From: Hyphomicrobiales bacterium
GTDB lineage: Bacteria; Pseudomonadota; Alphaproteobacteria; Rhizobiales; Devosiaceae
Direction: 5' to 3'
NCBI GenBank assembly: GCA_027066315.1
Contig: JAMONZ010000062.1
Location: 1-33,136 of the forward strand
Length of the DNA: 33,136 bases
A program made the translations under genes and the position numbers. This document shows positions 1 through 33,136 of this stretch, one piece after another (position 1 is the stretch's first letter; the number at the start of each line of letters is the position of its first letter). The notes beneath the pieces are model-generated. The model saw nothing but the letters and a program-made list of their open reading frames with translations, ran no database searches and had not been told where the DNA came from.

Positions 1-243
1 GGAGCAGGGCCAAAGGCTTTTGAATTGATAGATTTTTCAATTGAAAAAAACACTAACTTAGATGAAGCGATTGATGAAATTGTCAGACGCTTATCAATGC
101 AAATTAGCACCTATTTGTTGAGTGATAAAGTGCCAATGAGCGCAAGAATATATCCATCTGCAAAGCAAAATTTTATTGGTAATTACGAACATTTAGCTCG
201 CACAGGTGAATGGAGTTCAATTGATATGATTGAGGATGATTAA
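1..243 (+). CDS. addB: AddB C-terminus (partial), ATP-dependent helicase/nuclease subunit B
   Basis: The reading frame is open from the first base of the window, so this is the 3' end of a longer gene; about 80 residues are visible. AddB is the partner of AddA in the AddAB helicase-nuclease, which resects double-strand breaks for recombination. The visible tail ends with a motif resembling the usual alphaproteobacterial AddB ending (SARIYP, then NYEHLARTGEWS). The stop codon TAA overlaps the addA start by one base (TAATG), which indicates translational coupling. The catalytic nuclease residues lie upstream, outside the window. Identification rests on the tail motif plus the adjacent addA. Confidence 0.85.
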   Translation, partial: GAGPKAFELIDFSIEKNTNLDEAIDEIVRRLSMQISTYLLSDKVPMSARIYPSAKQNFIGNYEHLARTGEWSSIDMIEDD

Positions 244-3200
244 TGAGTGAGCGTAGCGCAACCCCAACCGCTGATATTATAAAAAGACAAAAAATAGCGG
301 CTAATCCGCTTTCCTCTGTTTGGGTGGAGGCCAACGCTGGCTCGGGTAAAACACATGTGTTGGTTGAACGGGTTTTACGACTTTTACTAGAAAAAGTTCC
401 GCCGCAAAACATCTTATGTCTTACTTATACAAATGCAGCAGCTGCTGAAATGCGTATTAGAATATCAAAAAAACTAGCCAGCTGGACATTGATGAGTGAT
501 GAAGAGTTAATAATTGAATTAACTGAGCTGACCCTTAAAAAGATTGATATAAAAACTCTAAAAACTGCCCGAATATTATTTGCAACTGCACTTGAAACCC
601 CGGGGGGGTTAAAGGTGAATACTATTCATGCTTTTTGTGAAAGCGTTTTGCATCGTTTCTCGCTTGAGGCAAAAGTACCACTTAATTTTTCTGTGATGGA
701 GCAGAGCGAAAGAGATGATTTAATTGATAATGCTTATCAAAAAGTTTTTGCAAAAGCTCTGCAAAACAGGGGTAAAAATATTGCGTCAGTAAAATGGCTG
801 TTTGCTAATTTGAGCGATCATCAAATTAGTGAGGCAATAAAATCTGCTATAAGCGATTCATCTTTATTGAGCGAAGTTTTAGGTGATAAACAAGGGGCAA
901 AACAGCGTCTAAAAGATCTAGTTGGAGATGAGGCTGCTAGTGTTAAAGAATTAACAGAGCAGCTTGTTAGCGAAACTTTTTTAACCAAAGAAATTCTAGT
1001 AACACTTGTTAATGAACTTAATGGCGATCCAACTGGCAATCGAAGATTTGTAGATTTATTATCTCGTATTAATATAAATAATATTGAGTTAAGCGATTTA
1101 GAAAGAGCATTTCTTACTGCCAAGGGCGAAAGAAAAAAAAGCCTTTTACTGAAAAAAGAAAAACAAGCCTTTCCTGATATTTCAAATATTATTGAAGCAG
1201 AAGCGCAAAGAATTAATGATTTAAAAGGGCGAATAAAACGCATTTTACTTATTGAACGCTCAAGCGCATTCATTGATGTCTTGGGGGAAATTTTTGAAAA
1301 TTATAACAAGCAAAAAATCAACCGCTCTATGCTTGATTTTGATGATTTGATTGAGCGAGTGGTTTATTTATTTACAACTGGGGCAGAAATGGATTGGGTG
1401 CTTTATAAGCTCGATGCAAATATTTCTCATATTCTAGTTGATGAAAGTCAGGACACAAATTCACAGCAATGGGTAATTGTTAAAAAACTTTGCGAAGAAT
1501 TTTTTGTAGGTTCTTCAAGCCAAGATTGCAAACGTACATTATTTGCGGTGGGTGATAAAAAACAATCAATTTTTTCTTTTCAAGGCGCAAAGCCATCATT
1601 ATTTGGCCAGAGCGGAATTGAAATAAAGTTAAAGGCAAAAGCGGCTAAAAAACCATTTACTCAAGTTGAATTAAAGGCATCATTTCGCACTTTGCCAAAT
1701 ATTTTAAAAGCAATTGATTTAGTTTGCAAACAAGATGGCATAAGCAATTCGCTGCTCGCAGGAGATCATGAAATTACCCATGAAAGCGCAAGAGATGATA
1801 AGGGAGGGGTTATCACCTTATGGCCGCCAATTAAGCAACAAGATGTAATATTACCCCCTGATCGTTGGCCGCTTGAAAAAGACGCTATGGAAGTGCGAAA
1901 TGCAGCTAGGATTGTTGCAACAAACATTGTTGAGAATATTGAAAGCTGGATAAAAAACAAACGCCCACTAGGCCAGCGAGGTCGTGCTGTACGAGCTGAT
2001 GACATTTTGATTTTGGTGCAGTCTCGCAAAGCATTATTTCAAGAAATAATCCGTGCCTTAAAAAATAAAAAAATAAAGACCCCCGGATCAGATAAAATTT
2101 CGCTCTCAAATCATATTGCAGTGCATGATCTTTTGGCACTGGCTGATATTTTACTTAACCCAGCTGATGATTTAAACTTGGCGGCGGTTTTACGCTCACC
2201 ATTATTTGATATTGATGAAGATGATCTTTTTGATCTTGCAGCTAATCGAGGAGAAATAAGCCTTTGGCAATCTTTAAAAATTTCAAAAAACAAAAAAGCA
2301 ATTAATGCTTATAAAATTTTAAAAAGTTGGCGTAATCGACTTGATTTTGATCGCCCTTATGAGTTTTTTGCCCAAATTTTATATTCATATGGGGGGTTGA
2401 AAAAATTCCATGCTCGGCTTGGCTTAGAGGTTGATGATGTGTTGAGCGAATTTTTAGATCTTGCTTTAGCCCATGAGCAAAAACCCCAACCATCAATAAT
2501 GGGGTTTTTAAATTTTATGCGAAATAGTGATATTTCGATAACTCGTGAGCTTGGCTCTAATAGTAATGGCGTTAGAATTATGACAATTCATGGCGCAAAA
2601 GGGCTTGAAGCTCCAATTGTAATTTTGGCTGATGCTGCAACAGGCGCAAATGTAACAAAATTTGGCAAGCCAATTAATTTTGCTAAAACTATAGACGGTT
2701 TAACTTTAGTCCATGGAGCAAAAAAAGATGATTTTTGTGAGAATACGGCTTATTTGCGCCAAGCAGATGCCGATAATGAAATGGCGGAATATTGGCGTAA
2801 ACTCTATGTGGCAATGACCAGAGCCGAAGACGAATTATATGTTACAGGCATTTTAACTAAAAAGGGCAAGATTGAAAAAACTTGGTATCATACTATTGCG
2901 CAAGCTCTAGAATCTCAGAGCGAGAAGTTTGAAATAGAGAATAGCGATGCAAGGGGGTTAATTTTCCCAAAAGAGCGGCCAAAACCTTTAGCAATAAAAA
3001 CTCAGCAAAAAGAACAAAAGAAAACATCTTTAGTTTTTGATCCAAAACTCACTTTTACTTCAGATGCAAAAATAATTATTAGACCATCGTTAGATCAGGA
3101 AAGTAAGGAGGAAAATAGCATTGCTTTGCATGCCAAAGATAATAGCATTGCTTTGCATGCCAAAGATAATAGCATTGCTTTGCATGCAAGAGAAAATAGC

Positions 3201-3728
3201 ATTGCTTTGCATGCAAAGGAAAAAGGCATTGCCTTGCATAGCCTGCTTGAGCATTTAGTGAAATATAAAAACGACAAGAGAAGAGAAGTTGGCCTGCAAG
3301 CCTTAAAAATTATTTTGCCTTTAAACAGTGATCTGCACGAAGAGCTAATAAACAAAGCGGTTCAAATACTTGGTGCGGAGCAGTTTAGCCATATATTTGG
3401 CTCAAACTCACGGGCTGAAGTTCCGTTTTTAATCAAAGCTCTAAAAAATGAAAAGCAAGTAATGATAGCAGGTAGAATTGATCGTTTGGTGATTGAGGAA
3501 AAGGAAATATTGCTAGTAGATTATAAGTCAGATGCAGACGTGCCAAAAAATGAAAAAGAAATACCAGCCCAATATACAACTCAATTAGGCCTATATTGGT
3601 TAGCTGGTAAAAAACTTTTCCCAAATCAAAAAGTTAAAGCCGCAATTTTATGGACTTCAGCTCAAAAATTGATGATTTTAAATGAAAATGATATAAAAAA
3701 AGCAGTTGCAAATTATAGCCTCTTGTAA
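243..3728 (+). CDS. addA: AddA, double-strand break repair helicase-nuclease
   Basis: A full-length 1161-residue UvrD/RecB-type helicase with a C-terminal RecB-family nuclease domain. In order: Walker A ANAGSGKT at about residues 30-37; the LTYTNAAAAEM motif; VNTIHAFCESVL; Walker B ILVDESQDT near residue 400; FAVGDKKQSIFSFQGAKPS; ASFRTLPNIL; MTIHGAKGLEAPIV; and YVAMTRAEDELY. The nuclease signature GRIDRL then LLVDYKSD lies near residues 1080-1098. With AddB it unwinds and degrades broken DNA ends and prepares the 3' end for RecA. An unusual feature is four near-identical 9-residue repeats (NSIALHAKD-type) at residues 958-993, immediately before the native KGIALHSLLEHL helix that opens the nuclease domain. 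The start overlaps the addB stop. Confidence 0.96.
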   Translation: MSERSATPTADIIKRQKIAANPLSSVWVEANAGSGKTHVLVERVLRLLLEKVPPQNILCLTYTNAAAAEMRIRISKKLASWTLMSDEELIIELTELTLKKIDIKTLKTARILFATALETPGGLKVNTIHAFCESVLHRFSLEAKVPLNFSVMEQSERDDLIDNAYQKVFAKALQNRGKNIASVKWLFANLSDHQISEAIKSAISDSSLLSEVLGDKQGAKQRLKDLVGDEAASVKELTEQLVSETFLTKEILVTLVNELNGDPTGNRRFVDLLSRININNIELSDLERAFLTAKGERKKSLLLKKEKQAFPDISNIIEAEAQRINDLKGRIKRILLIERSSAFIDVLGEIFENYNKQKINRSMLDFDDLIERVVYLFTTGAEMDWVLYKLDANISHILVDESQDTNSQQWVIVKKLCEEFFVGSSSQDCKRTLFAVGDKKQSIFSFQGAKPSLFGQSGIEIKLKAKAAKKPFTQVELKASFRTLPNILKAIDLVCKQDGISNSLLAGDHEITHESARDDKGGVITLWPPIKQQDVILPPDRWPLEKDAMEVRNAARIVATNIVENIESWIKNKRPLGQRGRAVRADDILILVQSRKALFQEIIRALKNKKIKTPGSDKISLSNHIAVHDLLALADILLNPADDLNLAAVLRSPLFDIDEDDLFDLAANRGEISLWQSLKISKNKKAINAYKILKSWRNRLDFDRPYEFFAQILYSYGGLKKFHARLGLEVDDVLSEFLDLALAHEQKPQPSIMGFLNFMRNSDISITRELGSNSNGVRIMTIHGAKGLEAPIVILADAATGANVTKFGKPINFAKTIDGLTLVHGAKKDDFCENTAYLRQADADNEMAEYWRKLYVAMTRAEDELYVTGILTKKGKIEKTWYHTIAQALESQSEKFEIENSDARGLIFPKERPKPLAIKTQQKEQKKTSLVFDPKLTFTSDAKIIIRPSLDQESKEENSIALHAKDNSIALHAKDNSIALHARENSIALHAKEKGIALHSLLEHLVKYKNDKRREVGLQALKIILPLNSDLHEELINKAVQILGAEQFSHIFGSNSRAEVPFLIKALKNEKQVMIAGRIDRLVIEEKEILLVDYKSDADVPKNEKEIPAQYTTQLGLYWLAGKKLFPNQKVKAAILWTSAQKLMILNENDIKKAVANYSLL
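3114..3245 (+). repeat. In-frame 27-base tandem repeat inside addA
   Basis: Four tandem 27-base units lie at 3114-3140, 3141-3167, 3168-3194 and 3195-3221. Each encodes NSIALHAKD or a close variant (NSIALHARE, NSIALHAKE). A fifth, diverged unit follows from 3222 and encodes KGIALHSLL, which belongs to the conserved start of the AddA nuclease domain. The first two units are identical; units 3 and 4 differ by a few bases. The array looks like expansion of the native segment, and the frame is kept throughout. Confidence 0.93.
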
Positions 3729-3747
3729 TATTAGTAACTGCTAATAT
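3728..3747 (+). terminator. Weak hairpin after addA
   Basis: A 7-base-pair stem (ATATTAG paired with CTAATAT) with a six-base loop begins at the last base of the addA stop codon. No T-run follows, so it is at best a weak terminator or an mRNA 3'-end stabiliser. The 75 bases after it, up to trxA, show no clear promoter by eye. Confidence 0.3.
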
Positions 3748-3822
3748 ATATAGGGCTTGAATAATACAAAATAACTCCTTAGCTGTTAAACACAAGATAT
3801 TAATTTAAGAAAGGCTTACATT

Positions 3823-4143
3823 ATGGCTCAAAAGGTTACAGACGCAGATTTTAAAAAAGAAGTTTTAGATTCAGAGATGCCAGTATTGGTTGATTTTTGG
3901 GCAGAATGGTGTGGTCCATGTAAGGCAATTGCTCCAATGCTTGACGAATTATCAATTGAGCTTTTAGGCAAAGTGAAAATTGTAAAATTAAATGTAGATG
4001 AAAACCCATCTACAATGGCGCAATATGGTGTTCGCTCAATTCCAACCATGATTATTTTTAAAAATGGCGAAGCAGTGGACATGAAAGTTGGCGCAGGGCC
4101 TAAGGCTTCAATGAGTCAATGGCTACAGGGTCACGCAAGTTAA
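3823..4143 (+). CDS. trxA: Thioredoxin
   Basis: A 106-residue single-domain thioredoxin, the normal length for TrxA. The redox-active WCGPCK motif has cysteines at residues 30 and 33, and the cis-proline loop is SIPTM. It acts in the cytoplasm as a general disulfide reductase, recharged by thioredoxin reductase. A purine-rich ribosome binding site (AGAAAGG) precedes the ATG. It follows addBA on the same strand after a 94-base gap; trxA next to addA is a common alphaproteobacterial arrangement. Confidence 0.97.
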
Positions 4144-4246
4144 AAAAACCTGTTGCACTTAGTTTCGCTTGCATCTATAAAGCAAAACTTGAACATGAGT
4201 GGTCCGGCTAATAGGCATGCCGTGGCGACTTTTCAAATGCTCTTTA

Positions 4247-4272
4247 GAGAAAGCTCGTATGAGGTTTTTCTC
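4247..4272 (+). promoter_or_regulatory. Leader hairpin upstream of rpmI
   Basis: In the 150-base leader of rpmI, GAGAAA at 4247-4252 pairs with TTTCTC at 4267-4272, and an inner CTC/GAG pair (4254-4256 with 4261-4263) closes a GTAT loop. The structure ends nine bases before the AAGGA ribosome binding site of rpmI. Such a position fits autogenous control of the rpmI-rplT operon by L20, which is known in other bacteria. No recognised leader family is claimed. Confidence 0.3.
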
Positions 4273-4293
4273 AAAATTATAAGGAAATGCAAA

Positions 4294-4491
4294 ATGCCAA
4301 AAATGAAGACTAAGTCAGGCGCGAAAAAACGCTTTAAATTGACTGCGTCAGGTAAAGTGAAAGCCGGCCCTGCTGGCAAACGTCACCGCCTAATGTCGCA
4401 TAATTCAAAATATATTCGTCAAAACCGTGGAACAGATATTCTTTGCGATGCCGATGCGCGCACCGTCAAAAAATATATGCCATACGGCTAA
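4294..4491 (+). CDS. rpmI: Ribosomal protein bL35
   Basis: A 65-residue basic protein of the usual bL35 length, starting [14 protein letters not shown] and ending KKYMPYG. It is a component of the large ribosomal subunit. The frame is open further upstream, but the start at 4294 is chosen because it gives the canonical N-terminus and has an AAGGA ribosome binding site at 4281-4285. It lies 31 bases before rplT, the standard rpmI-rplT order. Confidence 0.97.
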
Positions 4492-27793: not shown

Positions 27794-28888
27794 TTATTGC
27801 TTATTTTCTAATTGCCATAATGATTTTGCCCCATTAAACAATCGCTCCATAATTTGCCTCTCATTTACCCCCAAGCGAGCCGAAGGTGAAATATCAACCG
27901 TGCCACTTGCATCAGCATCAGAGTGTTCGCCCAAAACCCCTCGTACCGCTAAGCCAAGATTTTCTGCCTCAGATTTTACCTTTTCAAGCTCCTCTCCATT
28001 CTTTGTGAGGTTGGGTAATTTCATATGTAAACTCGCTCGCATAGAAGCACCGATATTTGACGGGCAAGAAGCAAGATTGCCATATTTTTCTGAAGAGGAA
28101 AATGCGGGGAGTATTTCGCCTAATATTTTTACTCCCTCAGATAGTTTTTTAAACATGCCATTAAGATCGCCACCTTTTTGCATACACATGATGCGAAGAT
28201 GATCTTCTTCACCCACCCAAACAATAAAATCCTCCTCACGAGAAATATACATGCCCCTTCCATGCGACCAGTCACCACTAATGCCTGCAGAATTTAAATA
28301 AGCATCTTTGCTCATGTCTTTGAACATTTGATGAGCATCAACATATCGTTGATATTCTTTTGCTGAAACTTCAAATGGCGAATTTGGCGAAATAGAAATA
28401 TATTTCCCGCCAAAACCGCTATGTTTGCCTAATTCCACAAATGCTTTTATCGCTAATTTTTCAAAATCAAGCCTTTGTTGTTTACTCATCGCAGCAGGCA
28501 AAGGAAAGCCCTCTACATTTCTTGCAACCCGTACTCGCATCGATACTTCAGCCAAAACTTCATCAATATTGCTAAGGTTGCAGTTAGTCTTATCAACATC
28601 CCAATCACTTTTATGACTAATTTTAATATCTGGTGAAATTTTATGGTAATCACGAATGATTAAATCAAGATATGGCGCAAATGTAGCATAGTCGTCTGCT
28701 TCATTAGCATATATCCCCATTTGGCTATCAGGGTTTTCCAATCCAGAAGCCATCATTTTTTCAAGCCTGTTTTTTTGGCTTTCATCTAATGATGAAAAAT
28801 ATTGTTCATCAAAATATTTTGCCATCAAATTTTGTGGGTTTGATTTTTTTATAGTGTTTATCTTTTTAAATATTTGTGTTTGTGACAT
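27794..28888 (-). CDS. Arginine kinase (ATP:guanido phosphotransferase)
   Basis: A 364-residue, two-domain guanidino kinase of the length of animal arginine kinases. It has a short specificity loop (SQMGIYANEADDY, about 55-67) like the SGVGIYAPDAEAY of arginine kinases, nucleotide-binding arginines 118, 120 and 123, a catalytic Glu in GEEDHLRIMCMQ (226-237), the reactive Cys275 in CPSNIG, and Glu321 in GEHSDA. The C-terminal SPSARLGVNE matches the family's RLG motif. This is the full kinase, not the McsB protein-arginine kinase, which lacks the N-terminal domain. It probably buffers ATP as phosphoarginine. It follows the yjbR-like gene by two bases. Confidence 0.92.
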   Translation of the reverse strand: MSQTQIFKKINTIKKSNPQNLMAKYFDEQYFSSLDESQKNRLEKMMASGLENPDSQMGIYANEADDYATFAPYLDLIIRDYHKISPDIKISHKSDWDVDKTNCNLSNIDEVLAEVSMRVRVARNVEGFPLPAAMSKQQRLDFEKLAIKAFVELGKHSGFGGKYISISPNSPFEVSAKEYQRYVDAHQMFKDMSKDAYLNSAGISGDWSHGRGMYISREEDFIVWVGEEDHLRIMCMQKGGDLNGMFKKLSEGVKILGEILPAFSSSEKYGNLASCPSNIGASMRASLHMKLPNLTKNGEELEKVKSEAENLGLAVRGVLGEHSDADASGTVDISPSARLGVNERQIMERLFNGAKSLWQLENKQ

Positions 28889-29265: not shown

Positions 29266-29622
29266 TTATTTTTGGCTCTTTGGTTTTGGTGCAAAACTTG
29301 AAAGAAAAAACCAGCCAACACCAACAAAAAGGACACCTAGCACAAGTAGACCAAGCCAAGTGGGCATATCTAAAACATAGACCATTGCAGGATCCCATAA
29401 AGGAGGAAAAATTTTACGTTCAATAATAGCCTGAAGAAGTGGCAGGCTAGCTGTGTCAAATATGTTTACAAATGGATCGTTTTGATACCATGCTTGGCCA
29501 AGTTTTAGCGATAATAAGTCTTGCGCCCTTACTATTATTGCAATTAAAAACCCAAATGCTATTATGCCGATTAACACAAGAGCTGTTGCTAAAAGTCGAA
29601 TGATAAATGCAATTAAACCCAT
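29266..29622 (-). CDS. Small two-helix membrane protein, unknown
   Basis: A 118-residue protein with hydrophobic segments at about 5-32 (FIIRLLATALVLIGIIAFGFLIAII) and 88-110 (LGLLVLGVLFVGVGWFFL), separated by a polar loop of about 55 residues, and a basic tail. The positive-inside rule suggests both ends are cytoplasmic. No family is recognised. It has a GGAG ribosome binding site and is sandwiched between another small membrane protein and the yjbR-like gene. Confidence 0.7.
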   Translation of the reverse strand: MGLIAFIIRLLATALVLIGIIAFGFLIAIIVRAQDLLSLKLGQAWYQNDPFVNIFDTASLPLLQAIIERKIFPPLWDPAMVYVLDMPTWLGLLVLGVLFVGVGWFFLSSFAPKPKSQK

Positions 29623-29650
29623 AACTTATTTTCTCCTATGGCTAAAATAT

Positions 29651-29974
29651 TTATCTCCAGCCTGACTTAATAAAAGCCGATGTTTTCTTTTTTCGCCCCA
29701 ATAACAACAATATTATACCCAGTAAACTCAAGATAATCCATGCAGGAAAATTAAAAATAAATTGGGCAATATATTGTGCTGAAATAATATCAAATAAATC
29801 AAGAATATAATTAGAAAAGCCACTCCAACTTGCCTTATGCAAACCTTGCCAAGTTTGCGCAAAAGAAGAAAGACTAATAGTTAGACTTGTAATTGAAATA
29901 GCAATATCTTTAACCACTAAGATTAACGCTAGCCCCAAAGTCCAAGTTCCCAATACTCGCAATAAAAATTTCAT
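29651..29974 (-). CDS. Small two-helix membrane protein, unknown
   Basis: A 107-residue protein with hydrophobic segments at about 6-34 and 72-92 (PAWIILSLLGIILLLLG) and a strongly basic end (GRKKKTSAFIKSGWR). Its topology matches that of the next gene, with a similar-sized loop between helices, so the two may be partners or distant paralogues. No family is recognised. It appears to be the first gene of the run that reaches leuC; the 5' region shows no clear ribosome binding site. Confidence 0.65.
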   Translation of the reverse strand: MKFLLRVLGTWTLGLALILVVKDIAISITSLTISLSSFAQTWQGLHKASWSGFSNYILDLFDIISAQYIAQFIFNFPAWIILSLLGIILLLLGRKKKTSAFIKSGWR

Positions 29975-30120
29975 TTTTTGTTTATTTCAAATCAGAGGCA
30001 AACAATCAACAACAATCATGATTTTAGAATATTTTATAAGGGGCTTATTTTATAAGGGGCTTGCAGAATTTTTATTTTAGAGTTAGGTCATTTTACTAAG
30101 TTGCTATGCTAAAGGATTTA

Positions 30121-30220
30121 AAAATAAGGAGAGGTGGCCGAATGGTCGAAGGCGCACCTTATTTTTGGCTCAAGTGCCAAAAATACTCTTTTAATGAGCG
30201 TACGCTTATCTTCGGCCACT
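30121..30220 (+). repeat. Nested and competing inverted repeats around the tRNA-Ser fragment
   Basis: Three inverted repeats overlap here. AAAAATAAGG (30121-30130) is the exact reverse complement of CCTTATTTTT (30158-30167). TATTTTTGGC (30161-30170) pairs exactly with GCCAAAAATA (30177-30186) over a six-base loop. GTGGCCGAA (30135-30143), inside the tRNA fragment, pairs exactly with TTCGGCCAC (30212-30220). The first two share bases, so only one can form at a time. Confidence 0.85.
30129..30158 (+). pseudogene. Partial tRNA-Ser copy (5' 30 bases)
   Basis: These 30 bases match the first 30 bases of the intact tRNA-Ser at 30250 with one difference (A for G at position 15). The match stops at the start of the anticodon stem; no anticodon loop or T-arm follows, so it cannot make a tRNA. 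It lies 121 bases upstream of the intact gene in the same orientation and is embedded in several inverted repeats. Confidence 0.85.
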
Positions 30221-30249
30221 CTTAGGTAATGCTAAGGGTTTATAACAAT

Positions 30250-30339
30250 GGAGAGGTGGCCGAGTGGTCGAAGGCGCACGCTTGGAAAGCGTGTAGGCAA
30301 GCAATTGTCTCCAGGGTTCGAATCCCTGTCTCTCCGCCA
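30250..30339 (+). tRNA. tRNA-Ser (GGA anticodon)
   Basis: A complete class II tRNA including an encoded CCA end. The acceptor stem GGAGAGG pairs with TCTCTCC (one G-T), the D-arm region is present, and the anticodon stem CACGC/GCGTG encloses TTGGAAA with anticodon GGA, reading UCC and UCU serine codons. A long variable arm follows, then the T-arm CAGGGTTCGAATCCCTG and discriminator G. Its 3' end is the putative attachment site for the insert that follows. Confidence 0.97.
30324..30339 (+). repeat. Putative attL: tRNA-Ser 3' end
   Basis: The last 16 bases of the tRNA gene (CCCTGTCTCTCCGCCA) recur at 32110-32125 as CCCTTCCTCTCCGCCA, with 14 of 16 bases identical and the last ten exact. Repeats of a tRNA 3' end flanking an insert are the usual trace of integrase-mediated insertion. 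The copy is short and imperfect, so this is a candidate only. Confidence 0.5.
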
Positions 30340-30776
30340 ATTTGCATTTTTCCATATAAAGACCTCTAACACCTTGAATTGTTAGACGGTTTTGGGTTCG
30401 AAGTCCTTAGTAATTACAGTATGTAATCCATTCGAGAAATACCAATCTTAGCGCAGTTCTTTTTATGGTCAGTTAACCTGATTTTTATAGTTCTCAATGG
30501 CTTGCAATGAAATTAGCGGCGAGTTCGAATATTCTCCGAAGCCATGTGATGGTGCGGCAGGTTATACGGTAAAAAAATATAACATGCACTGCAAGCTGTG
30601 TTTTATATTACAAAACGCTTGGCAAGGGAAACGCTATGCGCTCCCGTTGCATCCCCTAGAATTTACCATGGGGAGAGATTACCCTAAAATTATACTTGGG
30701 CTTTGCAAGGGAAAGCTGCTTTAAGTTGACCCGCCCTTTGTACCTATGGCACGTTGTAGAAAATTAGGAAAAAGCT
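30340..30776 (+). other. Non-coding or unassigned stretch between tRNA-Ser and the ParB-like gene
   Basis: 437 bases without a convincing gene. A 75-codon open frame at 30497-30724 has no clear ribosome binding site and no recognised family. Visible structure: an inverted repeat TCTAAC (30365-30370) with GTTAGA (30381-30386); a T-arm-like GGGTTCGAAG near 30395; and a direct repeat of GCAAGGGAAA, once near 30621 and once near 30706, the first followed by the CGC-TAT-GCG mini-palindrome. The stretch reads like decayed mobile-element sequence, possibly with the promoter of the next gene at its end. Confidence 0.5.
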
Positions 30777-32078
30777 ATGCGATTAGAACAGATTAAAATT
30801 AGTGACTTACAGGTGAACCGAGCAAATGACCGTCATGGAGAACTTGAAAACGAAACAACTGCAATATCGTGGCTTTTCAATACACGCGAAACTCACATGA
30901 AAAACCTCGCGAAAGACATAGTTGATGAAGGGAGGATATTTGAACCACCGCTAGTGACGCCAGAAAATGATGCCTTTTTGGTTTTTGATGGAAATCGACG
31001 GGTGACATGTTTGAAACTGATTGAGAAGCCAGAAAAGGCTCCAACCGTTCAGTTGCAAGACTATTTTAAGTTATTGCGAAAAAAATGGAAGGGAGACTTC
31101 CCAAACACTATTCTTTGCCAAGTGGAAGAAAATCGCGATGATATAGATAGTATCCTTTATCGCCGACACACAGGAACACAAAACGGTGTAGGCCAATCCA
31201 ATTGGGATGACCGAATGAAAGATAATTTCGTAACTCGATCAGGAAAAGCTACGGGGTTCAATCTTGCCGATGAAATTGAACAGCGGTTGAAGGCTGCCGA
31301 ATTGCTTCCGAAAAAGAGAATCCCAAGATCTAATCTTAATCGATTTTTATCTTCCGAAGCTATTCGGAATCGAATTGGTATTAGTTGCAAGAATAAAGAA
31401 TTTAGTTACACACATAAGCCGGAAGTAGTTCTTGAAACTCTCCGAGATGTCGCAGAAGATTTTGCTAACGGGCGCGTTGTCCTTGGTGATATATGGGATA
31501 ATACTGGCAAGCTTTCTTACCTCGAAAGGTTAGAAGGCGGCGGAAAACTCCCAAGCGATGCGGATGTTCTAGATACAAATAGCAACAAATCACCTAGCAA
31601 ACCAAAAACAAAACCGAAGCCGAATGCAAAACCGAAGCCTACAAGGCGAACAAATCTTATCCCACAGAAAGAGTTTGGCATTCTGTGGACAGGCAAGCAA
31701 CAACGACACCATGCAATTTGGGAAGAACTTCAATTCCACTTGAATACCAAAAAACATCCAAATGCGGTGTCAGTGTTATTTCGAGTGCTTTTAGAGCTAT
31801 CCATTGATTATTACGTGGATGAACACAGCATTCAAGTATATGCAAATGACAAGCTTGCGCGCCGTGTTGAAAAAGTTGGTGCATCACTTTTTAGCCACAA
31901 TAAAATTGATAAAAAACAATTGGATGCAACAAAGAAGTTTTCTCAAAACTATCAACTAATTTCGGCTGATACATTGAATAGATATGTTCATTCGCCAAGT
32001 TTTGCACCTTCACCAAAGGATTTGGAAGCCTTGTGGGACACATTGGCGGATTTGATTGTTGCATGCTTGAAGGGCTAG
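30777..32078 (+). CDS. ParB/Srx-fold N-terminal domain protein with C-terminal helical domain
   Basis: A 433-residue protein. Residues 1-90 have a ParB/sulfiredoxin-like pattern: IKISDLQVNRAND, a helix MKNLAKDIVDEGR, PPLV, and the box FDGNRRVTCLKLI at 70-82, equivalent to the ParB GxRR motif. A middle helical region (about 150-260) is followed by a Lys-Pro linker (about 273-293, repeated KPKP) and a separate C-terminal helical domain (about 300-433) with LFRVLLELSIDYYVDE and NRYVHSPSFAPSPKDLEALW, reminiscent of HEPN/abortive-infection C-terminal domains. No parA partner is adjacent, so chromosome segregation is unlikely. Related ParB-like proteins occur in restriction or defence islands; function here is inferred only. 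AGGAAAAAGCT precedes the ATG. Confidence 0.72.
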   Translation: MRLEQIKISDLQVNRANDRHGELENETTAISWLFNTRETHMKNLAKDIVDEGRIFEPPLVTPENDAFLVFDGNRRVTCLKLIEKPEKAPTVQLQDYFKLLRKKWKGDFPNTILCQVEENRDDIDSILYRRHTGTQNGVGQSNWDDRMKDNFVTRSGKATGFNLADEIEQRLKAAELLPKKRIPRSNLNRFLSSEAIRNRIGISCKNKEFSYTHKPEVVLETLRDVAEDFANGRVVLGDIWDNTGKLSYLERLEGGGKLPSDADVLDTNSNKSPSKPKTKPKPNAKPKPTRRTNLIPQKEFGILWTGKQQRHHAIWEELQFHLNTKKHPNAVSVLFRVLLELSIDYYVDEHSIQVYANDKLARRVEKVGASLFSHNKIDKKQLDATKKFSQNYQLISADTLNRYVHSPSFAPSPKDLEALWDTLADLIVACLKG

Positions 32079-32109
32079 CTTGAGAAAAGCAAATGGGTTT
32101 AGAGTTACA

Positions 32110-32125
32110 CCCTTCCTCTCCGCCA
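32110..32125 (+). repeat. Putative attR: degenerate copy of tRNA-Ser 3' end
   Basis: CCCTTCCTCTCCGCCA matches the tRNA-Ser 3' end at 14 of 16 positions and is exact over its last ten bases, CCA included. The bases just before (GGGTTTAGAGTTACACCC) can form a loose T-arm-like stem. It lies 31 bases after the ParB-like gene, giving an insert of about 1.8 kb. Confidence 0.5.
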
Positions 32126-32338
32126 TTTATAAAAATTCTGATACGAAAGATGCTGAAAAGCGTTTCACAGCCGCAAAGCAATTGGCGTAAGCTAGAAACT
32201 ATAGGTTTTTGCCATGAACAGGTAGCCATTTTACCGGCGAATGATCTTACCGAGCGAATTACCAGCACCTCTAAGCCAAAGGGACAATTAGATAGGGTAA
32301 AAGCAAGGGGCAAATCAGGAGTTAGCGTAATCCATATA

Positions 32339-32357
32339 AAAAACCACTATGGTTTTT
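32339..32357. terminator. Hairpin terminator candidate between convergent genes
   Basis: AAAAACCA at 32339-32346 and TGGTTTTT at 32350-32357 form a perfect eight-base-pair stem with a CTA loop. T-rich sequence follows on the plus strand and, by symmetry, on the minus strand. Its place between the plus-strand insert and the end of the minus-strand acyltransferase gene suits a bidirectional terminator, although the stem is AT-rich. Confidence 0.5.
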
Positions 32358-32392
32358 AATTTCTGTATCGGTTATTTGGGGCAGTCTCTTAT

Positions 32393-33061
32393 TTAAAGTG
32401 TTTTTTTAGCTGTTTTCATAACTTTTGCAGGAACACCATAAACTGTTGAAAAGGCAGGTACATCCTTTGTTACCACCGAACCCATTCCTACAATAGACCC
32501 CTCACCGATAACCAAAGGTTTCTCGTTCGTTCCTTGTATGATAATTGCTCCTGTTCCAATATAGGCGTGATCTTCTATTTTTACATTTCCATTACAATTA
32601 ACCTTAGGAGCAAAAGTTACAAAATCTCCAATCTCACAATCATGGGCGACATATGAATAAAAATTTGATTGAAAAAACTTTCCAATTTTGGCATTTGAGG
32701 AAACGATTGAATAAGCACATATAATTGCGCCTTCATCAATCTCAGAATTATCATATATTGTCGTTTTTTTAGCTATTAAGGAAATTGGTTTTGCGCCTCC
32801 CTCTATCATTCTTTTGCTAATAGCTTCTCTTGCCTTAGAGTTTGCTATGGCTATGGTAAAATATTTATCAGACTTATCTGACAGGAACTGTTCTTCTGAA
32901 ATAATCTTGTGCCCCATCATCATATCGTTTTGAGGATCACTCGTTACAAAAAATATTTGCTCCTGTTCTAGCTTAGGGAATGATTCTAATAAAATAGGCA
33001 TAATATCTCTTGCAAAGCTACCAGCACCAACAATAGCATATATTTTTTTCATCTTATCCAT
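32393..33061 (-). CDS. NeuD/PglD-like sugar O-acyltransferase
   Basis: A 222-residue protein with an N-terminal PglD-type nucleotide-sugar-binding domain (YAIVGAGSFARDI, about 7-19, then FTIAIANSKAR) and a C-terminal left-handed beta-helix of hexapeptide repeats (about 95-205: IDEGAIICAYSIVSSNAKIG, VKIEDHAYIGTGAIIIQG, VIGEGSIVGMGSVVTKDVPA), ending YGVPAKVMK. His155, in YVAHDCEIGDF, lies where the family has its catalytic His. Such enzymes acetylate amino-sugars for surface glycans. The start may instead be ATG 33052. No glycan partner gene is visible; upstream lies outside the window. Confidence 0.85.
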   Translation of the reverse strand: MDKMKKIYAIVGAGSFARDIMPILLESFPKLEQEQIFFVTSDPQNDMMMGHKIISEEQFLSDKSDKYFTIAIANSKAREAISKRMIEGGAKPISLIAKKTTIYDNSEIDEGAIICAYSIVSSNAKIGKFFQSNFYSYVAHDCEIGDFVTFAPKVNCNGNVKIEDHAYIGTGAIIIQGTNEKPLVIGEGSIVGMGSVVTKDVPAFSTVYGVPAKVMKTAKKTL

Positions 33062-33136
33062 GTGATAATTTTTCTACTTAAATTTTAATAATTATTTTGG
33101 GACTGCTCCAAAAAACGTATAAAAATATTATAAGGA

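Follow-up and report, generated by a model that had tools for sequence, protein, structure and literature searches.

The 33,136-nucleotide stretch of DNA analysed here (the window), from a Hyphomicrobiales bacterium, probably holds a methyltransferase-independent defence gene of the PD-Lambda-5_A family on a 1.8-kb unit that would be moved wholly in trans. The unit consisted, in order, of a tRNA 3′ end, a recombinase tail, an oriT-like module, the defence-family gene and a copy of the tRNA 3′ end. The gene was its sole intact gene. From the sequence, the boundaries could be placed at 30340–32125 with fairly high confidence, comprising the gene and about 437 bp upstream. tRNA-Ser(GGA) flanked the unit on the left and a copy of the tRNA-Ser 3′ end on the right. 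The features are listed in Table 1.

Table 1. Features in and next to the integrated unit, with positions in the window
Feature	Position	Strand	Evidence
tRNA-Ser(GGA), integration target, forming the left core with its 3′ end	30250..30339	+	ARAGORN, Rfam tRNA model
Remnant of the C-terminus of a large serine recombinase, with stop codons	30340..30532	-	tblastn, blastn
oriT-like module: covarying palindrome, then CTTGGCAAGGG-hairpin-CCCGTTGCATCC	30590..30660	+	20 aligned blastn-hit loci
PD-Lambda-5_A family gene, 433 aa	30777..32078	+	PADLOC PDLC03998 E 5.6e-83; PHROG 9592 E 2.2e-53; purifying selection
N-terminal ParB/Srx-like domain, residues 1–137, GNRR box 72–75	30777..31187	+	VIA, Foldseek
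C-terminal HEPN-like helical domain, residues 304–433	31686..32075	+	VIA, column counts
Right tRNA-Ser 3′-end copy (attR-like), CCCTTCCTCTCCGCCA	32110..32125	+	direct repeat D4
Remnant of a tyrosine integrase, immediately beyond the unit	32149..32343	+	blastn to open integrase ORFs of L066, L067

Family assignment and conservation

The gene was an intact open reading frame on translation. The profile search recommended in a first-pass annotation of the window gave no credible match in Pfam, and NCBIfam gave none either; in PADLOC it succeeded. All 25 PADLOC models that matched the protein were PD-Lambda-5_A models, and the best covered residues 1–429 of 433. PHROG 9592, which was also matched, is of unknown function, and a ParB-like phage family was matched weakly (E 1.6e-4). 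The sequences of solved structures gave no match, and the viral contigs contained one distant relative and no close one. By these matches the protein can be assigned to the PD-Lambda-5_A family with high confidence. PD-Lambda-5_A is reportedly the ParB-like component of the PD-λ-5 system. The first-pass annotation had regarded the pairing of domains as undescribed; the whole-length match identifies it as one already described. The defence role that it had proposed is probable through family membership, and the window's gene likely has defence activity.

PD-λ-5 came from a functional screen in E. coli (Vassallo et al. 2022). It affected all but one of the panel phages and protected against T-even phages more strongly than against λvir (PMC9519451). 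PD-Lambda-5 tends to be encoded by prophages, and the prophage of its discovery was P2-like (PMC10482375). Judged by their titles, the PMC papers listed for PD-λ-5 do not deal with its mechanism.

The open reading frame and the motifs quoted in the first-pass annotation were real. GNRR was at residues 72–75 and PPLV at residues 57–60, and the C-terminal part contained LELSIDYYVDE and YVHSPSFAPSPKDL. Residues G72, N73, R74 and R75, together with H405 and S406, did not vary in any of the 33 aligned rows, one of which was the window's own. Compared with its nearest homologue, in L007 (protein identity 92%), the gene had a dN/dS of 0.07 at a dS of 0.55; for the piece in L031 the values were 0.047 and 0.68. 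Six homologue comparisons gave dN/dS of 0.05–0.10; dS was saturated for L009 and L011, which therefore have no ratio. The gene is under purifying selection. A conserved TTGACC..TATGGC block upstream (30726–30750) was considered as a promoter; its 13-base spacing is non-canonical, and no claim is made for it.

Absence of the methyltransferase partner

The second PADLOC component, PD-Lambda-5_B, is a D12-class N6-adenine methyltransferase (PF02086). Neighbours of the distant A homologues L004 and L039 matched PDLC04018 (2.9e-111 and 1e-113) as well as PF02086. In the window, none of the nine flanking proteins scanned with PADLOC matched PD-Lambda-5_B, and tblastn with two PD-Lambda-5_B proteins found none. 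PF02086 had no match in the window's genome, which is 98.7% complete. The partner methyltransferase is absent, and this is held with high confidence.

When 50 A proteins were arranged in a tree, PD-Lambda-5_B stood beside none of the 37 rows of the window's set and beside 9 of the 13 rows outside it; neighbours were counted over 1.5–6 kb per side, or less at contig ends. The partner-present and partner-absent rows were separated on the tree by a single change, and none of 500 shuffles was equally low. The depth of the split is uncertain because the branch separating the 37 rows (support 93/72) falls outside the well-supported group and several outside branches are long. At least one of two proteins, HEPN_Cthe2314 and T5orf172/GIY-YIG, adjoined 14 of the 37 methyltransferase-less rows; neither was present in the window. 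The two recurred as a pair beside methyltransferase-less PD-Lambda-5_A genes (L035 7302–8539 and similar loci), and the pair may be a separate defence module.

The protein belongs to the A family but lies in a clade without the methyltransferase; therefore, the locus differs from the published PD-λ-5 system. The A protein is matched over its whole length, and both have a mobile-element setting. PD-λ-5 has an adjacent methyltransferase, whereas the window has none, no member of the D12 class was found in its genome, and its A protein falls in a clade of its own. The settings also differ in kind, a P2-like prophage for E. coli PD-λ-5 (PMC10482375) and a tRNA unit for the window gene. The whole methyltransferase-less clade would presumably escape defence finders whose rules ask for A together with B. 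The clade also raises the question of how phage is told from self without a mark on the host DNA.

Domain structure

The whole-protein model was built from 28 aligned rows (pLDDT 76.9, pTM 0.51). Its longest low-confidence stretch (268–288) fell inside the Lys-Pro linker at about 268–290. The predicted N-terminal domain clearly had the ParB/Srx fold. VIA aligned it with ParB 7bnr_A at Z 9.6 over 94 residues (rmsd 2.4). Nucleotide-bound ParB proteins were the best matches, and Noc, KorB and sulfiredoxin ranked lower. The best Foldseek E was 3.7e-3, with none at 0.001 or below. The ParB/Srx-type domain of the first-pass annotation was thus borne out by the model and by the invariant GNRR box.

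The C-terminal domain resembled HEPN folds more weakly. In the whole model, the VIA matches were 2q00 (Z 8.1), which we take to be a HEPN structure, sacsin HEPN (Z 8.0), the C-terminal part of AbiA (Z 7.9) and the MntA-HepT type 7bxo (Z 7.8). Folded alone from 30 rows (pLDDT 83.0), the domain gave a top 15 of VIA rows at Z 4.5–6.3, low values for helical bundles, and the next rows were at 4.2 or less. Nine of these 15 rows were titled HEPN or HepT, and the remaining six are presumably HEPN-type. No Foldseek E below 0.8 was obtained for the lone domain. The predicted domain can be called HEPN-like only weakly.

The usual catalytic motif of HEPN RNases is Rx4-6H. Five positions before H405, leucine was found in 32 of 33 rows and methionine in 1 of 33; R402, three positions before H405, was replaced by Lys or Met in 9 of 33 rows. 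The usual HEPN RNase motif is therefore lacking. The usual catalytic arginine is not conserved, and a "HEPN toxin" is therefore doubtful. For the HEPN/Abi C-terminal domain of the first-pass annotation, a likeness of fold was borne out, more weakly for the domain alone (Z 6.3). An abortive-infection RNase with the HEPN domain as toxin and the ParB-like domain as sensor is improbable on the state of this motif, although the fold likeness extends to MNT-HEPN toxins and the AbiA C-terminal part, H405 is invariant, and some homologues adjoin separate HEPN_Cthe2314 and GIY-YIG genes.

The ParB-like pocket probably serves as an NTP switch or as an enzyme. No nuclease domain beyond the ParB-like fold was found with Pfam, NCBIfam or VIA. 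ParB/Srx proteins of conflict systems have been proposed to act on nucleotides or as nucleases (PMC10853773, PMC12839542).

Like the window protein, the GmrSD-type type IV restriction enzymes (DUF262 and DUF1524) have a ParB/Srx-like domain with a D-G-(N/Q)-(R/Q)-R box and need no methyltransferase. The two differ in the C-terminal domain, which is DUF1524 in GmrSD and HEPN-like here. The likeness is one of description, not of alignment. It is doubtful that the gene by itself makes up a type IV-like restriction factor that attacks phage DNA carrying modifications and uses its ParB-like domain as an NTP-dependent enzyme, as GmrSD does. The absence of the methyltransferase from the clade agrees with it; so do the stronger protection by PD-λ-5 against T-even phages than against λvir (PMC9519451) and the NTP pocket formed by the related DGQQR box of GmrS (PMC10952713). 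However, no nuclease domain was found besides the ParB-like fold, and the T-even effect was measured on the published PD-λ-5, which has the methyltransferase.

A transcription or partition regulator outside defence is highly improbable for this protein. ParB, Noc and KorB were among the best matches of its N-terminal domain, and some homologues lay among metabolic genes (e.g. L002). Against this, no parA-like gene was seen on reading the listed ORFs of the window, the match to a defence family extends over the whole length, and some homologues have defence neighbours. In L012 the PD-Lambda-5_A gene was beside PDC-S46, and in L013 it was near type II RM genes. A defence gene remains the preferred assignment.

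Integration at tRNA-Ser(GGA)

The first-pass annotation had placed the gene in a candidate tRNA insert. This was confirmed. CTCTCCGCCA occurred in the window solely at 30330 and 32116, the first being the tRNA-Ser(GGA) end. Direct repeat D4 was 84% identical over 19 bases with a spacing of 1786, and the 16-mer of the right copy was identical to the 3′ ends of tRNA-Ser(GGA) in sister genome G001 and of the genome's own tRNA-Ser(GCT). G001 (L068) had the same tRNA-Ser(GGA) with other DNA behind it, without the insert of the window.

Related units were found elsewhere. A Rhodobacteraceae MAG (L007) aligned with window positions 30326–32081 at 82.9%, and its unit measured 1744 bp between similar ends. 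No tRNA was found in the L007 stretch, so the left core stands apart from any intact tRNA there. L031 had the left part directly behind tRNA-Val(CAC). L036, a contig of the same MAG, carried the rest of the gene, and CTCATCACCCACCAGTTC recurred at its right end. The gene was split between L031 and L036 at nearly the same place, with shared inverted ends, which reads as the insertion of an IS. In L030 the gene was behind tRNA-Met and broken inside (86% identity in the best segment). The L008 protein was 83% identical; its stretch contained no tRNA, no DNA match to the oriT region and no such unit. Therefore, the gene also occurs outside such units.

The tyrosine-integrase fragment adjoining the unit matched L066 and L067, whose integrases cluster with L070 938–2206, a Phage_integrase (PF00589). 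Sister genome G004 had a tyrosine-integrase gene behind the corresponding tRNA. The fragment reads as the remains of another tRNA-Ser element.

Two further observations were made near the ends. At 30112–30230 there was a partial second tRNA-Ser 5′ half (87% over 46 bases), followed by reverse-complement-like sequence; it was also present in sister genome G003 (L065), so it is probably older than the insert. The T-arm-like GTTCGAA occurred at the left end of the unit and near the recombinase truncation point (L007, L031, L036 and window 30394 and 30521); L007 and L036 had it at their right ends too. These repeats are possibly recombination sites, or due to chance.

Recombinase remnant

The remnant starts at about residue 444 of the L089 recombinase and runs on into the tRNA in antisense. 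In tblastn, the L089 protein matched 30532–30242 at 59% identity (E 8.4e-27), an E-value to which the tRNA-derived end contributes; against the end of this protein, tRNA-Ser genes by themselves score about 1e-8 to 1e-13. A separate DNA match outside the tRNA linked 30363–30529 to G033 (76%, E 3e-27). The L089 protein is complete, with Resolvase and Zn_ribbon_recom in Pfam, and its element adjoins tRNA-Ser(GGA) in a genome of the same family, the same genome as that of the G033 match. The L089 recombinase ORF (2768–4486) runs antisense through its tRNA-Ser, and the predicted C-terminus includes tRNA-derived residues.

The first residue of the remnant was the same in the window, L007 and L031. 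L007 and L031 were colinear with the window up to the gene, at 68–73% identity over about 392 aligned bases. The same truncation at two tRNA types, tRNA-Ser and tRNA-Val, suggests with moderate strength that the unit moved after the recombinase was lost; independent deletions in the window, L007 and L031 are less likely. Neither the resolvase domain (PF00239) nor the relaxase domain (PF03432) had a match in the window's genome, so movement by the route proposed here would need incoming helpers.

A tRNA island could instead have lost its recombinase and most of its cargo in place, leaving an immobile remnant, formerly mobilisable in cis, whose gene is kept for host defence. Such an origin is rather unlikely for the unit. 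It agrees with the stops that fill the recombinase tail, with the adjoining tyrosine-integrase remnant and with the absence of recombinase and relaxase matches from the genome. It is also favoured by the lack of right ends in the siblings searched, and CIMEs are a known outcome of this kind (PMC5704250). However, the same truncated left part, colinear to the gene, is found behind both tRNA-Ser and the tRNA-Val of L031 at a dS of 0.68, and the oriT-like module has been retained. Movement in trans is therefore preferred.

oriT-like module

The module consists of two hairpins between the remnant and the gene. Among 20 loci picked by blastn, the stems varied yet stayed complementary. The pattern CTTGRCAAGGGN{4,22}CCCGTTGYATCC occurred at 32 places in 29 of the 397 genomes of the order, and the reversed-pattern control gave 0 among the matches listed. 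The outer stem had a mean of 2.76 pairs in 42 distinct variable parts, uncorrected for relatedness, against 0.48 when shuffled (maximum 1.02 of 2000). The window's own hairpin had an outer stem of 1 pair beyond GGG/CCC and a degenerate right arm, which could be decay.

Ten distinct records of a plasmid collection were matched by two short module queries. In four of them, one alpha-, one beta- and one gammaproteobacterial and one from Desulfosarcina, the module preceded mobC, and the relaxase gene came next. The distance from module to mobC was 74 bases in Desulfosarcina, 37 in Nitrosospira, 59 in Methylomagnum and 549 in Frigidibacter, where a small ORF lay between. In 6 of the 10 records no mobC was listed just downstream. 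The Staphylococcus plasmid was matched weakly (E 0.2) and had mobC and the relaxase on the other side; the R. etli and Devosia plasmids had no listed mobC beside the module; Acidibrevibacterium gave two weak matches (E 0.2); and the Tritonibacter record was unannotated. The Devosia and Tritonibacter stretches also had a tRNA and a serine-recombinase match. Among 30 chromosomal pattern loci, 5 had a relaxase match, 5 a serine-recombinase match, of which the remnant in the window is one, and 4 a tRNA no more than 1.5 kb away. An 81-base oriT query had no match in 20,395 E. coli records.

The module can be identified as a putative oriT with fairly high confidence. A regulatory RNA or terminator was set aside as the general reading of the hairpin, which precedes mobC in four plasmids; such a role is possible for chromosomal copies. 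Rfam on 29600–33136 returned the tRNA and three matches below gathering scores, so the hairpin fits no known RNA family. The first-pass annotation had held that homologues clustering with partition or conjugation genes would speak against defence. No partition genes were seen by the homologues, and an oriT-like module lies in the unit; it fits transport of the gene better than a role in partition or conjugation.

Related loci and known mobile elements

Other loci joined a tRNA and the oriT to other cargo. At tRNA-Met, L090 had a BglII-type endonuclease with a D12 methylase and L153 an N6/Eco57I-type methylase; at tRNA-Thr, L154 had a single DUF5677 gene. L112 and L115 are short versions of L153 and L154, whose longer stretches were read as ORF lists. 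L090 gave no recombinase match, and in L112 and L115 the DNA up to 1.5 kb from the oriT gave none. L092, at tRNA-Arg, retained a recombinase remnant together with two genes that neither PADLOC nor Pfam matched. Larger relatives kept the serine-recombinase ORF, namely L089 (Pfam), L012 (tblastn), and L156 and L158 (by reading).

Twelve tRNA-bearing loci were searched for a repeat of the tRNA 3′ end of at least 9 bases, and the window alone was positive. None was found in the stretches of L030, L090, L091, L092, L112, L115, L089, L012, L130 or L133, so no right end could be assigned to the sibling units.

Elements that carry an oriT without a relaxase are named iOriT (PMC11389934), and the MGIs of the SXT family are an example of this type (PMC5704250). 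Like them, the unit is integrated in the chromosome, has an oriT (predicted here) and lacks a relaxase. In contrast to them, it has no integrase, measures 1.8 kb, holds a single intact gene and has an oriT of the MobC/MOBP plasmid type. CIMEs have lost the genes for integration and transfer and kept their att sites (PMC5704250). The unit shares with CIMEs the att-like repeats at a tRNA 3′ end and the lost integration and transfer genes, and has a recombinase remnant; unlike CIMEs, it has kept an oriT-like module and shows the same truncation at more than one tRNA type. The unit combines features of iOriT elements and CIMEs. No report of integrase-less or oriT-only tRNA defence units was found among the papers listed from the PMC literature, outside which many subscription papers lie.

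These loci may represent a class of minimal hitchhikers of about 1.3–3 kb, a tentative reading that we consider possible rather than probable. Each would combine a single defence cargo with a MobC/MOBP oriT and a tRNA-type att region and nothing else. Serine-recombinase islands and mobilisable plasmids would move it wholly in trans, much as transposases move MITEs, and the class would thereby supply bacterial chromosomes with defence genes one at a time. The candidate cargoes would be PD-Lambda-5_A in the window, the BglII-type RM pair of L090, the Eco57I-type methylase of L153 and the DUF5677 gene of L154. One passenger would then be a methyltransferase-independent branch of PD-λ-5. That no right ends were found for the siblings makes this class less probable.

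Proposed mechanism

We infer mobilisation of the unit in trans from its anatomy and from the occurrence of its recombinase-less left part behind both tRNA-Ser and tRNA-Val. A tRNA-directed serine recombinase of a helper would excise and insert the unit. A MobC/MOBP-type relaxase of the helper would nick the oriT and send the unit through the helper's mating pore. Small inserts beside tRNA genes house many defence genes, with nothing apparent to move them. Should a 70-bp oriT together with a tRNA att site suffice, such inserts would become predictable from sequence.

The PD-Lambda-5_A protein would work without the DNA methyltransferase of its family. Its ParB-like domain may bind a nucleotide in the DGNRR pocket and engage invading DNA or its breakdown products. 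The HEPN-like domain may dimerise and relay the signal to an effector step, either phage restriction or cell arrest. No methyltransferase marks self DNA, so self and non-self would be distinguished by a feature of the phage, e.g. modified DNA as in GmrSD. Modified phage DNA as the molecular trigger is a reasonable guess, of low confidence, prompted by the stronger effect of PD-λ-5 on T-even phages and by the likeness to GmrS.

Other observations in the window

A gene at 27794–28888 (- strand) resembled arginine kinase (ATP:guanido phosphotransferase); it was named by reading and had no PADLOC match. To our knowledge, arginine kinase is rare in bacteria. A helicase-like ORF at 243–3728 (+ strand), AddA-like by reading, contained tandem peptide repeats of the ENSIALHAKD type near its C-terminal part. 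At 32799–33134, the end of an acyltransferase-like gene was repeated at 98–99% on contig end G000:C82 (L072) of the same genome, which is either a duplication or an assembly overlap.
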